Positions 5,254-17,215 of a stretch of 30,766 nt of DNA are shown here, one piece after another (positions within the stretch are counted from its first letter, which is position 1; the number at the start of each line of letters is the position of its first letter). Position numbers and translations under genes: made by a program. The notes beneath the pieces were generated by a model. It had not been told where the DNA came from. It did not search any database and saw nothing but the letters and a program-made list of their open reading frames with translations. This DNA is from a virus, in IMG/VR virus record IMGVR_UViG_3300025102_000168, positions 1-30,766 of that record; one strand, written 5' to 3'.

Positions 5254-5610
5254 TCAGAAGTTGTACTTGACGCCAACTTTTGTACCAACAGAAGGATCCT
5301 CATCTGCAGTGATGAAGCTCAGTTCGCCATAAACGCCAAACTGTTCTGTTGCTTGAACGCTGCCGCCAATCTTGCCGGACAGCTCAAACTCACCTTCTTC
5401 GCCTTGGGGCGAAACAAACGCTGGACCACCCTGCAGGTAGTAGTTGTAGACGCCTTCGCCACCGTCAAAACCAACGTGAATATCAGTCGTTGCACCTTGA
5501 TAGTCGCCGCCTGAATAACCAGCGTTATTCTCCACGTTCACATAAGGGCCTGCCAAGGCAGCTGAACCAGCGAGAACACCAGAAACAGCGACTGCGAATG
5601 CTTTGATCAT
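5254..5610 (-). CDS. Small outer-membrane beta-barrel-like protein with signal peptide
   Basis: The 118-residue protein begins with a signal peptide (MIKAFAVAVSGVLAGSAALA, cleavage before GPYVNVENN). Alternating Gly/aromatic beta strands follow: TTDIHVGFDGG, YNYYLQGGPAFVSP, FELSGKIGGSVQAT, FGVYGELSFIT and a final VGTKVGVKYNF. The C-terminal phenylalanine and the strand periodicity are hallmarks of outer-membrane porin-like barrels, though about 98 mature residues is short (perhaps four to six strands, or an oligomeric barrel). I recall homologues in marine cyanophages. With its own terminator and flanking gaps it looks like a moron gene altering the host surface. It has no clear ribosome binding site. 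Confidence 0.8.
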   Translation of the reverse strand: MIKAFAVAVSGVLAGSAALAGPYVNVENNAGYSGGDYQGATTDIHVGFDGGEGVYNYYLQGGPAFVSPQGEEGEFELSGKIGGSVQATEQFGVYGELSFITADEDPSVGTKVGVKYNF

Positions 5611-11216: not shown

Positions 11217-12317
11217 TTAGGACCAAGTTGAAATCGCAACCCGTTTCCAGGTGTTAGTTGCAGTGCAGACGTAAACATAATCTGCGTCCCAAGCAATTTC
11301 CCCAGTCGTACCAGCAGCGGTTGCAGAAGCAGGCGTATGAGTCGGCAAAATTGGACGACTACCTAACGTCACATTTGCTGCCGTAATTGCTGCCATGCTG
11401 GTCAACGTTCCAGCCGCCTCAACCTTTAAGTCAATCTTGCCGTCCTCTTCCGTGTCAGAAGCGTCAACAATTGAAACTTCTATTGATCCAAAAACAATTT
11501 GCTCAGGAGTAGAAGCGTCATTGTTCCCTTTGACAATTAAAGAGCTAAGAACATCGTTATCCTGACCCGCAACTGCATCACCACGACTGTGATACAAAGT
11601 TATATCAGCGGCGCTTACGGAAACAGCTTCAGTAGATTCAATAAACAGACCAGTGTTTGCGACTGACTCCGAGATGTGGAGCGGATGTTGAGGGTTAGCC
11701 TCATTAATTCCGACTTTGTCGCTTTTTATCGTAATGCGTGCTGCAGTAGCGCCAGCCGCTGCAGTCATTAAATGCAGCAAGCCATCTTCACTGGCATCAG
11801 TAGTATCTGCAATTTGAGCTAAAACTTGGGCATAGGCAAAGCCTTCGCTATTGCTGTTTTGTCCTCGAAACTCAAGATTTCCAATGTTGTCGCTAACAGC
11901 AGGTGATGCTGAATTGCGATACAACACAACGTCTGGCGCAGTATCAAGACCCGTATCAGTATTCTCAATAATAACTTGATCTGACGTAACTGAGCTGAAT
12001 AGGTGCAACTGAGCAGCAGCCGTTCCAGTGCCTAATTGAAACCCAGCGGTTGTAAATTTGCCAATAAAACTGCTATTTGCGGTAACGGCAATTTCGTTAG
12101 CAGCAGAACGATAAAAACCCGAAACACTGCCATCAGACAAAAAGCTAATCGCAGGCGCAGCTGTTGTCCCATCAGGGACAGTCTTATGCAACGTGCTAAA
12201 TAGCAATTTTTTATTTTTGTCGGCATTAGCAGCTTCGCTGCTATCTACAACAACAAATTCATCTGTTGCGTTTGGAGCTAGTAGCTGAGCAAGTTGAGAG
12301 ATTTTCCGATCAGCCAT
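11217..12317 (-). CDS. Tail fibre protein, 366 aa
   Basis: The N-terminus (MADRKISQLAQLLAPNATDE, then FVVVDSSE) matches the fibre-anchor type of the 202-residue neighbour. Residues about 55-340 show successive beta units, each with a short acidic or glycine turn. Examples are GFYRSAANEIAVT, a CAQLHLF-like line, DNIGNLEFRGQNSN, KVGINEANPQHPLHI and SSLIVKGNNDAS. The 'VGIN...P..LHI' element is typical of phage and bacterial fibre shafts ending in S74 chaperones, but this protein lacks an S74 domain. Its C-terminus (AWDADYVYVCTATNTWKRV, then AISTWS) resembles the closing element of other marine phage fibres. Confidence 0.8.
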   Translation of the reverse strand: MADRKISQLAQLLAPNATDEFVVVDSSEAANADKNKKLLFSTLHKTVPDGTTAAPAISFLSDGSVSGFYRSAANEIAVTANSSFIGKFTTAGFQLGTGTAAAQLHLFSSVTSDQVIIENTDTGLDTAPDVVLYRNSASPAVSDNIGNLEFRGQNSNSEGFAYAQVLAQIADTTDASEDGLLHLMTAAAGATAARITIKSDKVGINEANPQHPLHISESVANTGLFIESTEAVSVSAADITLYHSRGDAVAGQDNDVLSSLIVKGNNDASTPEQIVFGSIEVSIVDASDTEEDGKIDLKVEAAGTLTSMAAITAANVTLGSRPILPTHTPASATAAGTTGEIAWDADYVYVCTATNTWKRVAISTWS

Positions 12318-13291
12318 TAGTTTGCCTCCAGGGTTGCAACACGATTGGTCAGAGAAGCAATTTCGGCAAAAGCTTCTTGCAATGCTGCTGTAAGCAGCGG
12401 TACTAATTTAGATTGGTCAATAGCTTGATAAACGGCGTTACCGTCTGAATCAATTTCGTCTTTCGTTCCTGTCACAGATTCCGGAACAGCAGCTTGTGCT
12501 TCATGAGCAAGAAACCCATCAACTAATACGTCTGTTTTGCCTATAAAATTAAATCGCTTAGGGAGTAACTGCTGCAAGCGAGATTTTGCGCCAGTTAAAT
12601 TAACGACGTTTTCTTTTAATCTGTAATCAGATCCTGTGTTGTACGAAACGGCGCTAGTAGTCATATTAATGTGACCTACCGGCGTGGCTCCATCGCGAGC
12701 AAAGCTAATCATTTGACCATCATTGCCAGTACGATTCATCCTTATCCCTGGCCCTTCATGCGTACACATTTGCATCCTGCCAAGCTCAGCAATCATTATG
12801 CCTTGATGTGTTAAACCTTCCGAAGAAGTAACAACTTCTGGCTTCTTGGGGGCAGCTAAAGACGCTGCGTTTCCAATAAATAAAGCCCTGTTTTTGGTGG
12901 TTCCAGAAGGCGCAACGTTATAACCAATCTTTAAATAAGTATGGTTCTCCATAGACAATGCAATTTCATTGTCCGCAGCGTTGGTAGGCGCATAAAAGCC
13001 GGACGTCGTATTGGTGCCAAAACGAACACTAGGCAAGGCTTGCGTACCAGCAGGGAATGCTATAGCCCCTTCTGTCGTATTAAAATCAATAACATTTACC
13101 CAGCCATTGTCGGCGTCATTTCTAATTTTTAAAATTTTTGCGCTTTCGTCATACCACCACATGTGGCCAACAATCGTACTGGGTTGAGTTGCCCCGCTGT
13201 GATTGCTAAAAACTGCCGCAAGCTGACCATTGATGTCAGTCCTTACAGCAGCACCACTAGCATTTGCTACAACCCCATCTGCTTGAGCCAT
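12317..13291 (-). CDS. Tail fibre with C-terminal S74 self-cleaving chaperone
   Basis: The 324-residue protein has an N-terminal shaft with SVRFGTNTTSGFY and similar beta elements. From residue 221 it has a peptidase S74 intramolecular chaperone domain: SDYRLKENVVNLTGAKSRLQ, then DGFLAHEAQAAVPESVTG, then QSKLVPLLTAALQEAFAE and a C-terminal coiled coil (LTNRVATLEAN). In S74 proteins the chaperone trimerises the fibre and cleaves itself off at the Ser of this (G)SD.RLKEN motif. Cleavage is expected just before Ser221. A conserved Lys-Asp/His-rich set is present. It is the first fibre gene after the tip protein J, so it probably forms the main or side fibre. Confidence 0.88.
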   Translation of the reverse strand: MAQADGVVANASGAAVRTDINGQLAAVFSNHSGATQPSTIVGHMWWYDESAKILKIRNDADNGWVNVIDFNTTEGAIAFPAGTQALPSVRFGTNTTSGFYAPTNAADNEIALSMENHTYLKIGYNVAPSGTTKNRALFIGNAASLAAPKKPEVVTSSEGLTHQGIMIAELGRMQMCTHEGPGIRMNRTGNDGQMISFARDGATPVGHINMTTSAVSYNTGSDYRLKENVVNLTGAKSRLQQLLPKRFNFIGKTDVLVDGFLAHEAQAAVPESVTGTKDEIDSDGNAVYQAIDQSKLVPLLTAALQEAFAEIASLTNRVATLEAN

Positions 13292-13300
13292 AATTGCGCT

Positions 13301-16300
13301 TTAAGACTGTTGTGTTCCATATCCTATTGCACTGTACTGAAAAGATCTGTCAATGACAGAACTGCCGTTTTTAAACGTGATCGTAAACCCAGTTCCGGTA
13401 GGCTCTGACATCACGTAATAATCCCCGTCGTTCATGTTGAAAGCCGTAATTCCAACAGTCACCTTGGTGTTGCCATCGGTATAGAACGCATTGACAAAAG
13501 TCACAGCTTTCCCAGAACTGTCTGTACCAGAGCTGATTGTGGTGCTGTTTTCGCTGCGTCGTTCAAATTGCAGCGTTACCCCTAGCTCATCAACAATCGG
13601 CGTCTGGTCAGCGTGGTTAGTTGAAAGCTCAGCTTTAAATTGAAACGATCGTCCCACAAACACATTATTCTCAAGAGCGATCCAATCATCAAAAACAAGA
13701 TCTGAATTTTGCTGCAGATGCGAATAAACACCGGCATTTGTGCTTAATTGTCCTCCCATTCCTGAATGAGCAGAACAGTAATAATAAAGAGTTGGGGCTC
13801 CAGCAGCTAAAATTATTTGTGTATAAGCTCCTGAAGTTCCTGGCGTTCCAACCGTTGTTACGCCTGTAGTGTATTCAGAGCCTCCGCCGTGTGTTCCGTC
13901 GCTGGTTTCGCTTATTCTTAGTGGATGCCCAGAATTGCTTGCATTGCTTGCGTCAGACTGATCAAATATGTAAGTGTTGCCTTCTGTTAAGGCTAACGTT
14001 TCGTTGTCGGTGCTAGAGCCGTTAATTCTATATTTATTCCCACCAGAACTGACAACAGTTACAGCAAAGGTGACACTGTCTCCTTCAAGTTCAATTTTAC
14101 TGCTATTGGCATCGGTGTGGTCTTCAAAAACAATATCAGAATCGGTTGCACCAAGGTCTGATTTTCTAAAATACACTTGAACTTTTGTGTCGTCAGGAAG
14201 GTCTCCGTCAAAGTCGGCCCATGTGTCAATGTTTACTGTACGACTGTCAATAAGGTTGCTTAGATAAAGCCCGCGAGTTGTCAACACGCGTTGCATTTGC
14301 ACGCTAAACTTTGCGCCAAGATCAATAACGTTGTTGAAGAAATACGTGCCGCTAGTAAATTGCGTTCCAAATTGCGAATCAATATTTTCTGTAAACGCGT
14401 CTAGGTCAGGAATATTGTCGAAAGACGCATCTCCATCTAGTATCAAGCCGTCATATACGTCATTGTATGCAACGCGAAATTTGTCTCCGTTAAATTCGCC
14501 AGGCGACGAGTCTTCTCTTACAACTTCATAATTAAACCTGGGAATTTCGTCAGGCAAGTTAATTAAAGCCTTGCCTGCATTCTTGCTGCGCAACCCTTGG
14601 TTGTCTTCAAACTTGATTTGATATTCTCCGTTAAGACGAGGAACAAAGGCGGAACTAGCTCTTGCTTCTGTTTCTTTTAGAAAATTAGTATTTGGCCAAG
14701 GTCTATCTGCTTGCGATGCGTGCCTAATTACAGCTGTAAAATTTTCACGATTTAGACCGCTAGCTGTAGCCAGCCAGCGCAAGGAAGCCAACCCTGTTCC
14801 AATTGCTTCAATTGATACGCCTGTTGGATCAGGAGGCAACAGCACATTGGCGGTGCCAGACGCGTCATCGCTTGTTTCACCAACGGGGATCTCACGCTCA
14901 ACTTTCGTAACTTTAGATTTTTCACGATCTGGCTTAGGCCCTCTAGCTGTAATCTGCGCATACAGAATTTTTCCAGGCTTTAAATTTGTGTTTACGTCGA
15001 TAGACGTGTTAGTGGTAAAAACAACAGTCCAATTGCCGCCTTTGCCTACTTTCCATTTAATCTTGAAATCTTCGACCGACCTTGTTAACCCTCTGCTCCA
15101 GGAAATAATAGCTCGATTTGTTGTATTTCGGCCGTCGTCAATTTGATTAAACCTAATTTTTGCATCTTGAACTTTTTCTGGCTTTTGTCCGTAGATAAAG
15201 GGTGGTGGTAACACTAAGCTCGCGTCTTTTTCCTCGATTACACGGTATATATCGTCAACATGACGCACGCCTGTGACGGTATAAACGCCAGCTTCACCCT
15301 CCCCTACGGAAAGACATCGATACTTTCTTATAACTGCAGCGTCACTTGTAATTGAATAAACAGCGTCATCAGGCGGCGCTTGCGTAAACCTGGAGCTAAG
15401 TGTAATTTCCGTGCCAGAAAAATTATCAATAGCTTGCGTCTCTACTGTTCCGTCTTTCATGACAACGCTGAGTTTACTGTTAGGACCAGGCGGCAACACT
15501 ACGTCTTGATCTATCCGAACTTTTATTCGCGTAGCCCCAACAATACGACCAGCTAAACGGATCCCTAGGCGCATCTCGTCTGACACTTCAAAGACTTGAC
15601 CCGGCAGTACGTTTAAACCTTCAAGGCCAACTGAAAATGTAACCGTATCATTGTGAATCTTTTCGGACAGCATTATCCAACGCCCCAACCGCTGGGCTTG
15701 ATGCTTTGAAGTGCAGCCAAACGCAACAACACTTTTTTCTTGTATGCCATACTTATCAATTAGATTTCTGTCTTCAATGATGATAAAATTAGGCTTGTAA
15801 AAGTTATCAGGGTCGTTGTATCGAATGCGTACCCTAGTGCTTCTAGTTTTCAAAGAAGAGCCGCTATAAGAAAAGCTGCCGTTAACAACATTTGAATTAC
15901 TAAAAACATGAATTGCCGCCAATGGGTCTGCGGTCGCTCCGCCTAAATTTCCGTGGTCAGCAGCGATTTGTACGTTGTCTGCCTTCCAAAAAAGCATTCC
16001 ACGAAAAATACTTGCCATATCCTGCAGGACGCTGTAAGCGTCAGCCTGCGATCCAAGCACAGTATTGATTGCAAACCTTGGCTCTAGCCCGTCTGGTGTG
16101 TCAACCAGCTCATTGCAATACTTAGAGATCTCAATTAAATCAACCCAGTTAAGATTTTTTTCGTCAATAAAATCACCTGCGCCGTAACGAGTGTTGGTCA
16201 GCAAGTCGTAGAAACAACAAACAGGGCAAGTAGTCCATTCCCTGTTTCTTCTCAAACTTCCGTCGAAAGGAATATTATCATTGTCATAAATAAGACGGCC

Positions 16301-17215
16301 ATTTGTTGGGTCAGTACACGCATTAGATGGAATTTTAACTTTTAAACCCTTTACGTCATACGCCCTTGCAGGCAAAGTATTAAATTCTTCCGAATCGATG
16401 CTTAAATAAGCAAGAGCTGTAAAAGGGTAGTTTGTTTTTAAATATTTGCCAACAATAATGCTATTCCAAATAATAACATCAGCTCGGCTACTAGCTAAAG
16501 GCGTTTTTTGAGGCAATTCTTCAAGGTCTGTTAATTTTATCTCAAAAGCATCTTCAGGGGTTGCAAATTCCAGCTTGCGAACTCGAATCCTGTAAGGTGC
16601 TTTTCTGAGCCCTTTAGCGTTAACAAGCTCAAAAGGCTCAGTAATAAATTGATATTGCGACGTCGATATTCCTTTTATTATGTTTTTATCTTTTTGCCCT
16701 TCTGCCCTAAAGTTTTTCTTTGCAAAGCTTCCGCCATCTTCTGCGATTTTAATTTCTAATTTAATTTGGGCATTGAATAGCTGCCCTCGCGCCAACCCCT
16801 CCATAGCAGTACAATGAAGTCTGGGTACTGTAAAAACAAGTTGGACAAAATCAGCCTCAGAGTCTGTAATTGATCGCATGACTTGACCGCTGCCATAGTC
16901 ACGATCGACAACAAAGTTTTTGTCATTGAGTGTTTCGCTATAGTTTCTACCGACCTGTTCATTTACGTCAATGATTGTAGTTTGAACGTCACTTAAAGAA
17001 GAATTTTCGTTAAAACGTTTTTGTTCCTTGCCCCCCTTTCTTATCGCAATAGAAACTGCTTTCCTTTCCTCATCGTCTTCGTCTTCTCTAGTTTGCTGCA
17101 CTGTTACTAAACTTTCATTCAAAAACACGCTTTCTCGATGCCGAACGAGCCCTTCAATAGGACCTTCGCAAATTGCGTCTATAATCTTGAGATTAGTCTT
17201 TGAATTAAGAGCCAT
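13301..17215 (-). CDS. J: Tail tip / host-specificity protein, lambda J-like
   Basis: The 1304-residue protein matches the TipJ architecture. The N-terminus is KTNLKIIDAICEGPIEGLV. Central blocks include WNSIIVGKY and the YDLLTNTRYGAG element (residues 336-347), which in lambda-type J sits in the hub domain. FN3-like domains follow at about residues 690-775 and 795-890. A cupredoxin-like domain at about 1048-1157 and a C-terminal beta domain (about 1170-1304) complete it. Cysteines at 330, 333 and 334 precede YDLL, where many relatives have NPAW. The protein forms the tail tip and is expected to contact the host receptor. It lies between gpI-like and fibre genes, as in lambda. Confidence 0.92.
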   Translation of the reverse strand: MALNSKTNLKIIDAICEGPIEGLVRHRESVFLNESLVTVQQTREDEDDEERKAVSIAIRKGGKEQKRFNENSSLSDVQTTIIDVNEQVGRNYSETLNDKNFVVDRDYGSGQVMRSITDSEADFVQLVFTVPRLHCTAMEGLARGQLFNAQIKLEIKIAEDGGSFAKKNFRAEGQKDKNIIKGISTSQYQFITEPFELVNAKGLRKAPYRIRVRKLEFATPEDAFEIKLTDLEELPQKTPLASSRADVIIWNSIIVGKYLKTNYPFTALAYLSIDSEEFNTLPARAYDVKGLKVKIPSNACTDPTNGRLIYDNDNIPFDGSLRRNREWTTCPVCCFYDLLTNTRYGAGDFIDEKNLNWVDLIEISKYCNELVDTPDGLEPRFAINTVLGSQADAYSVLQDMASIFRGMLFWKADNVQIAADHGNLGGATADPLAAIHVFSNSNVVNGSFSYSGSSLKTRSTRVRIRYNDPDNFYKPNFIIIEDRNLIDKYGIQEKSVVAFGCTSKHQAQRLGRWIMLSEKIHNDTVTFSVGLEGLNVLPGQVFEVSDEMRLGIRLAGRIVGATRIKVRIDQDVVLPPGPNSKLSVVMKDGTVETQAIDNFSGTEITLSSRFTQAPPDDAVYSITSDAAVIRKYRCLSVGEGEAGVYTVTGVRHVDDIYRVIEEKDASLVLPPPFIYGQKPEKVQDAKIRFNQIDDGRNTTNRAIISWSRGLTRSVEDFKIKWKVGKGGNWTVVFTTNTSIDVNTNLKPGKILYAQITARGPKPDREKSKVTKVEREIPVGETSDDASGTANVLLPPDPTGVSIEAIGTGLASLRWLATASGLNRENFTAVIRHASQADRPWPNTNFLKETEARASSAFVPRLNGEYQIKFEDNQGLRSKNAGKALINLPDEIPRFNYEVVREDSSPGEFNGDKFRVAYNDVYDGLILDGDASFDNIPDLDAFTENIDSQFGTQFTSGTYFFNNVIDLGAKFSVQMQRVLTTRGLYLSNLIDSRTVNIDTWADFDGDLPDDTKVQVYFRKSDLGATDSDIVFEDHTDANSSKIELEGDSVTFAVTVVSSGGNKYRINGSSTDNETLALTEGNTYIFDQSDASNASNSGHPLRISETSDGTHGGGSEYTTGVTTVGTPGTSGAYTQIILAAGAPTLYYYCSAHSGMGGQLSTNAGVYSHLQQNSDLVFDDWIALENNVFVGRSFQFKAELSTNHADQTPIVDELGVTLQFERRSENSTTISSGTDSSGKAVTFVNAFYTDGNTKVTVGITAFNMNDGDYYVMSEPTGTGFTITFKNGSSVIDRSFQYSAIGYGTQQS
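13745..14074 (-). other. Cupredoxin-like domain in the J protein
   Basis: Residues about 1048-1157 of the J protein show a plastocyanin-type pattern: YRING, TLALTEGNTYIFDQSD, SGHPLRISE, then APTLYYYCSAHSGMGG. All four type-1 copper ligands are visible in order: His1097, Cys1147, His1150, Met1153. The Cys-x2-His-x2-Met loop is as short as in amicyanin. Copper binding is an inference from the motif. Confidence 0.78.

Follow-up and report, generated by a model that had tools for sequence, protein, structure and literature searches.

A predicted cupredoxin module with a conserved type-1 copper ligand set in a phage J-like tail protein and its relatives in marine phage virion proteins

Type-1 copper proteins are familiar in electron transport and as domains of enzymes, and the presence of their complete ligand set within a phage tail protein raises the question of whether such a domain holds a metal on the virion and what it might do there. 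The domain is encoded in the window, a 30,766-base virus record. We addressed the question computationally, by prediction of the fold and by analysis of the conservation of the ligands, the mobility of the domain, and the selection acting on it.

The domain within the J-like tail protein

The J-like central tail fiber or tail tip gene occupies positions 13,301–17,215 on the minus strand, as do all features of the window given below, and encodes 1304 amino acids with matches to PHROG 31 ("central tail fiber J," E = 3e-131) and Pfam Phage-tail_3 (E = 5e-23). The PHROG 31 match spans the conserved J core, amino acids 3–748 (14,972–17,209), by which the protein is classed as lambda J-like, whereas the match does not extend to the COOH-terminal part, which contains the cupredoxin insert and the lectin-like end. 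The neighbors of J encode an L-like minor tail protein, a tail protein that is NlpC/P60-like, and a tape measure protein. Directly after J lies a gene for a fiber-type protein with a COOH-terminal S74 chaperone domain (12,317–13,291), and a C39-like peptidase or endolysin-type gene is present at 1170–1889. The window also encodes a cyanophage outer-membrane-protein-like beta barrel (5254–5610; Pfam Phage_OMP, E = 3.7e-40), which hints at a cyanobacterial host. The nearest named relatives are cyanophages; the virus is a marine one, and its host is probably a cyanobacterium.

Sequence, comparison with J homologues, an AlphaFold model, and structure matches together delimit the cupredoxin domain, an inserted module, to amino acids 1047–1160 (13,736–14,077). 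A preliminary description of this DNA had placed it at 13,745–14,074 (amino acids 1048–1157), a span that fits the domain and for which we adopted the slightly wider boundaries given here. The motifs named in that description were all present, and the four residues were exactly where it had put them: the GNTYIFDQSD motif lies at amino acids 1079–1088, the SGHPLRI motif at 1095–1101, and the Cys/His/Met-loop motif at 1140–1155, with the predicted type-1 copper ligands 1 to 4 being His1097 (13,925–13,927), Cys1147 (13,775–13,777), which is the sole Cys of the domain, His1150 (13,766–13,768), and Met1153 (13,757–13,759), the last of these in the axial position. Just before His1097, this copy contains three extra residues, an Ala-Ser-Asn repeat (amino acids 1092–1094, positions 13,934–13,942), that are absent from 95 of 97 relatives.

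The domain had also been assigned to the receptor-contact end of J. It does lie near the tip, but not at the extreme end: approximately 144 residues lie beyond it, among them those of a lectin-like domain at amino acids 1219–1300 (13,316–13,561) that was recognized by structure matches and is the likely receptor-binding end. The model from which these matches were obtained, covering J amino acids 880–1304, was poor overall (pLDDT of 56), and only its COOH-terminal part was used for structure matches. The last 82 residues matched discoidin I (H-type lectin domain; Z of 7.8, rmsd of 2.5 over 78), and the COOH-terminal model also matched phage AP22 gp53 (Z of 7.6) and the cyanophage Pam1 tailspike RBD (Z of 7.0). 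With Z values below 8, the evidence for a resemblance to H-type lectin and phage receptor-binding domains is moderate. As modeled, the lectin-like end would be a likelier receptor binder of J than the cupredoxin domain, and the earlier suggestion that the cupredoxin fold itself binds the receptor gives way to this better candidate.

Fold prediction and relatives of the domain

The domain was modeled with AlphaFold, without templates, from an alignment of 46 non-redundant domain copies (A1), with a resulting pLDDT of 87.1 and pTM of 0.81. Nine of the ten Foldseek matches in the PDB at E ≤ 0.001 were type-1 copper proteins (three-domain nitrite reductase and rusticyanin), the tenth being a venom prothrombinase chain, and the next matches were AcoP, pseudoazurin, amicyanin, laccases, and plastocyanin. 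Alignment of the model by VIA-align gave a Z of 10.1 with nitrite reductase 2dv6 (rmsd of 7.3 over 113) and a Z of 8.8 with rusticyanin 2cal (rmsd of 3.3 over 109 residues). Foldseek TM-scores of approximately 0.5 point to a fold in common with cupredoxins and to a kinship that is not close. The model and the PDB matches indicate a Greek-key beta barrel, in which the Cys is situated at the end of one strand and the Met before the next, as in the cupredoxin layout, and the sequence contains the His ... Cys-x2-His-x2-4-Met ligand set of type-1 cupredoxins. A Greek-key cupredoxin fold had been named beforehand as one of two points on which the preliminary description would stand or fall, and the model proved confident, with cupredoxins as its best solved matches. 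On the basis of this model, amino acids 1047–1160 almost certainly adopt the cupredoxin fold. Two BFVD "Beta-sandwich" proteins, A0A481YVH3 and A0A481Z6J5 (from a Marseillevirus and a Pithovirus), also match the domain model.

Sequence searches of solved structures with the single sequence or the close alignment A1 gave no matches of value. A wide profile (A3; 79 intact copies, mean column identity of 38%) ranked nitrite reductase (E = 0.015) and plastocyanin (E = 0.021) at the top of the PDB matches, with E-values that are weak. Pfam Copper-bind (PF00127) matched 14 of 79 relatives at E ≤ 0.1 (best value, 2.9e-5); it did not match the window copy, and single members fell below its curated cutoff or were unmatched, so that the domain is not assignable to this family. 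A search of NCBIfam with the domain gave no matches. In its predicted fold and in the order and spacing of His...Cys-x2-His-x2-Met, the domain is similar to the type-1 cupredoxins rusticyanin, pseudoazurin, amicyanin, plastocyanin, and three-domain nitrite reductase. It differs from them in being embedded in a tail protein, in that the window copy has no match at the level of a sequence family, and in the Pro placed directly after the first His in 89 of 93 copies, and its copper occupancy is predicted.

Relatives of the domain were detected by tblastn in 117 phage records, and viral contigs contain at least 593 domain-like stretches. Almost all of the named phages that carry it come from the sea (Synechococcus, Prochlorococcus, Pelagibacter, and Methylophilales phages), and the proteins that contain it are gp9, tail fibers, the baseplate wedge, and other virion proteins. 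The COOH-terminal domain of gp9, the baseplate fiber connector of T4-like cyanophages, is a relative (349 records), and the His-Cys-His-Met set was intact in the gp9 copies that were read (L204:1525–1824, L213:557–853, and L214–L220). The domain class is therefore not new to marine phage structural proteins, as the preliminary description had suggested. The location in J, which had been regarded as unexplored, is one instance among many: as judged by sequence comparison, the domain is a portable module of many marine phage tail proteins, and it is found in some close J homologues and missing from others.

A stand-alone copy of 113 amino acids, gp080 of phage P-SS2 (L212:2971–3327), corresponds to ORF 080, whose product mass spectrometry of purified virions detected with an average of 9 peptides (PMC2784084, Table 2). 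Its ligand positions read Asp, Ala, Thr, and Met. Because this virion copy has lost three ligands, at least one virion uses the fold without the site, and gp080 is probably a natural metal-free version.

A genome scan yielded 83 relatives of the domain in marine bacteria and archaea. Some of these are phage genes, such as that for a T7-type fiber in a Pelagibacteraceae contig, and others adjoin cadherin, collagen-like, lectin, or phosphatidylethanolamine-binding-protein domains in surface-type proteins. In a bacterial genome of the SAR92 clade (L190:7224–8312), the relative is fused to a phosphatidylethanolamine-binding-protein domain.

Cyanophages carry a separate plastocyanin gene, petE (PMC3037559), and PetE and the J domain are alike in being cupredoxins encoded by marine cyanophages. 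PetE is the product of a separate metabolic gene, however, whereas the J domain is embedded in a virion protein and has a loop two residues shorter than that of plastocyanin; the domain therefore does not belong with PetE. The cupredoxin fold with its site and cyanophage petE are thus known, and we found no earlier report of cupredoxin domains in virion proteins in the literature searched, coverage of which was partial, so that this absence is weak evidence.

Conservation of the ligands and insertion into J

All four ligands were intact in 93 of 97 non-redundant relatives and in all 80 viral-contig loci. Three of the 97 copies had lost three ligands and one, a partial copy, had lost four, whereas none had lost one or two. 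Random loss of the set among homologues, which the preliminary description had named as contrary evidence, was thus not observed. Given that losses come together and never singly, the four ligands appear to constitute one functional unit. They are also the only invariant columns of A3, an alignment that deliberately excludes degenerate copies, which the count of 97 includes, and they persist down to approximately 28–40% identity while other columns vary. The short Cys-x2-His-x2-Met loop of the amicyanin type, noted earlier for the window copy, is present in 91 of the 93 intact copies. These counts, together with the 117 phage records and the viral-contig stretches, rule out a chance motif.

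One of the search peptides spans the Cys and a His, and copies without that peptide were therefore examined separately. The four ligands were kept in 22 of 22 such viral copies and 49 of 51 such cellular copies, and search-peptide bias was rejected on this basis as the source of the conservation. Eight more phage copies, obtained by tblastn with no peptide filter, all show His ... Cys-x2-His-x2-Met; seven of them belong to Kyanoviridae, for the most part in gp9, and the eighth to an actinophage from a lake. Retention of the Cys for an intradomain disulfide is disfavored, since 88 of the 93 intact copies have a single Cys per domain. Such strict conservation is better explained by selection for a metal site than by plain reuse of the fold. 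A metal site is very probably under selection, and from the ligand set and the fold we infer that the metal it holds is likely to be copper.

Comparison with homologues and the low-confidence model of the COOH-terminal region (mean pLDDT of 56) place the insert between two strands of a receiving domain, at amino acids 1010–1019 (...VQVYFRKS; 14,159–14,188) before it and 1185–1199 (...GRSFQFKAEL; 13,619–13,663) after it. Among J homologues with approximately 54–78% identity, 14 have the domain between ...VYFRKSD... and ...DWIPLENN..., and 16 lack it there. The module has entered one loop of a beta domain upstream of the COOH-terminal domain of J, and, given that 16 close homologues do without it, the tail tip does not depend on it. 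J-borne copies form one clade (support of 99), and the J tree requires at least three changes in domain presence; the reading with the fewest events would be a single entry into J followed by losses or swaps. One homologue without the domain, L103, retains EGST, the residues that come first in relatives with the domain, and this remnant looks like a loss scar. In two Prochlorococcus phages, MED4-117 (L082; J amino acids ~1028–1093) and P-HS2 (L083), another segment (GTIITITKASHGYSVGSFVVVDF) occupies the cupredoxin loop. The J proteins of L103, L107, and L109 carry a different portable module (AGTTDFTAIGASNNNAGTIFTATGSGSGTGTVYG type) upstream of and near the cupredoxin site, with two copies in L109, and no cupredoxin there. 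The ratio dN/dS was 0.087 for the domain versus 0.096–0.109 for the rest of J, and the domain is thus under purifying selection, as is the rest of J.

Possible roles on the virion

In our preferred reading, His1097, Cys1147, His1150, and Met1153 of J would together hold one metal ion, most likely copper, in a portable cupredoxin module that serves contact, stability, or both; taken as a whole, we hold this reading tentatively, as something not quite probable. Metal binding would hold the cupredoxin barrel in the folded state, and the module would be an accessory one, mounted on the side of J next to the receptor-binding tip. Folded and probably loaded with copper in the virion, it would add host-surface contact or tip stability in seawater, or both, and the neighboring lectin-like domain would supply specificity. 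The contact role is suggested by the location and company of the domain, with relatives in fibers and in cell proteins that bear cadherin, collagen, and lectin domains, and it is possible, if slightly more doubtful than the reading as a whole.

The metal might instead only lock a small barrel that serves as padding or as a spacer at the tip, with neither receptor contact nor redox activity. We consider such a metal-stabilized spacer somewhat unlikely. It would accommodate the occurrence of the domain at widely differing sites of the virion (J, gp9, fibers, and wedge) and the finding that the domain is optional in J and swappable with unrelated modules of the same region; a full His-Cys-His-Met site would be needless for this job, however, given that many metal-free Ig-like modules perform it, and yet no columns are more conserved than those of the ligands. 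Phage structural proteins are also decorated with Ig-like and other portable modules, which are likewise optional and exchangeable on virion proteins, and the cupredoxin module differs from them in its strictly kept metal site. That many marine tailed phages carry working type-1 copper cupredoxins on tail tips, fibers, and gp9, with the copper active in adsorption or as a redox trigger, appears unlikely.

A redox role is possible but unsupported, and a redox module, in which copper would trade an electron with a partner on the host surface or in the periplasm or would quench reactive oxygen, as a switch or as protection, is distinctly improbable. The site is of the electron-transfer type and the nearest folds are electron-transfer cupredoxins, whereas no partner is known, the domain occupies many unrelated virion positions, and no further redox gene was recognized among ten other window proteins scanned.

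Tail copper as bait for a host copper-uptake receptor, a copper Trojan horse after the manner of the iron "Ferrojan horse," is very improbable. The surface position and the copper-type site are compatible with it, and PMC11705849 offers a marine phage precedent in predicted iron-binding tail-fiber domains: Alteromonas phage R22Y, with its predicted iron-binding tail fiber, resembles the present case in the suggestion of a metal on a marine phage tail and differs in the metal and, apparently, in the site. Against such bait, the domain has no link to copper receptors, and its site also occurs in proteins away from the tip. Buried type-1 copper sites, moreover, give up copper poorly.

It is slightly less probable again that another metal, such as zinc, fills the site within the virion, given that Cys/His sites can bind zinc but that a cupredoxin fold bearing an axial Met and a short Cys-x2-His-x2-Met loop is the pattern of type-1 copper. 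Hardly credible is the metal-free reuse of the fold raised in the preliminary description, with ligand conservation due to shared descent alone: a few copies lack the ligands (P-SS2, the first copy of L156, and L177), and yet the set is kept in 93 of 97 copies, even at the low identities given above, with three or four ligands lost at once.

Given that no part of the family is kept as strictly as the four ligands, our results suggest that many ocean phages may carry a metal, most likely copper, on their tails. Lambda J is a trimer, and T4 gp9 is present in 18 copies. If the J protein is trimeric as in lambda, the domain would add three metal sites per virion, and if gp9 is present in 18 copies as in T4, approximately 18 copper ions per virion would be predicted from gp9 alone. 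If the preferred reading is true, abundant ocean phages would bear copper on their tails, in exchangeable virus parts whose only invariant residues are the copper ligands. Trace-metal chemistry would then be tied to phage adsorption, and the copper would be directly measurable in cultured cyanophages.
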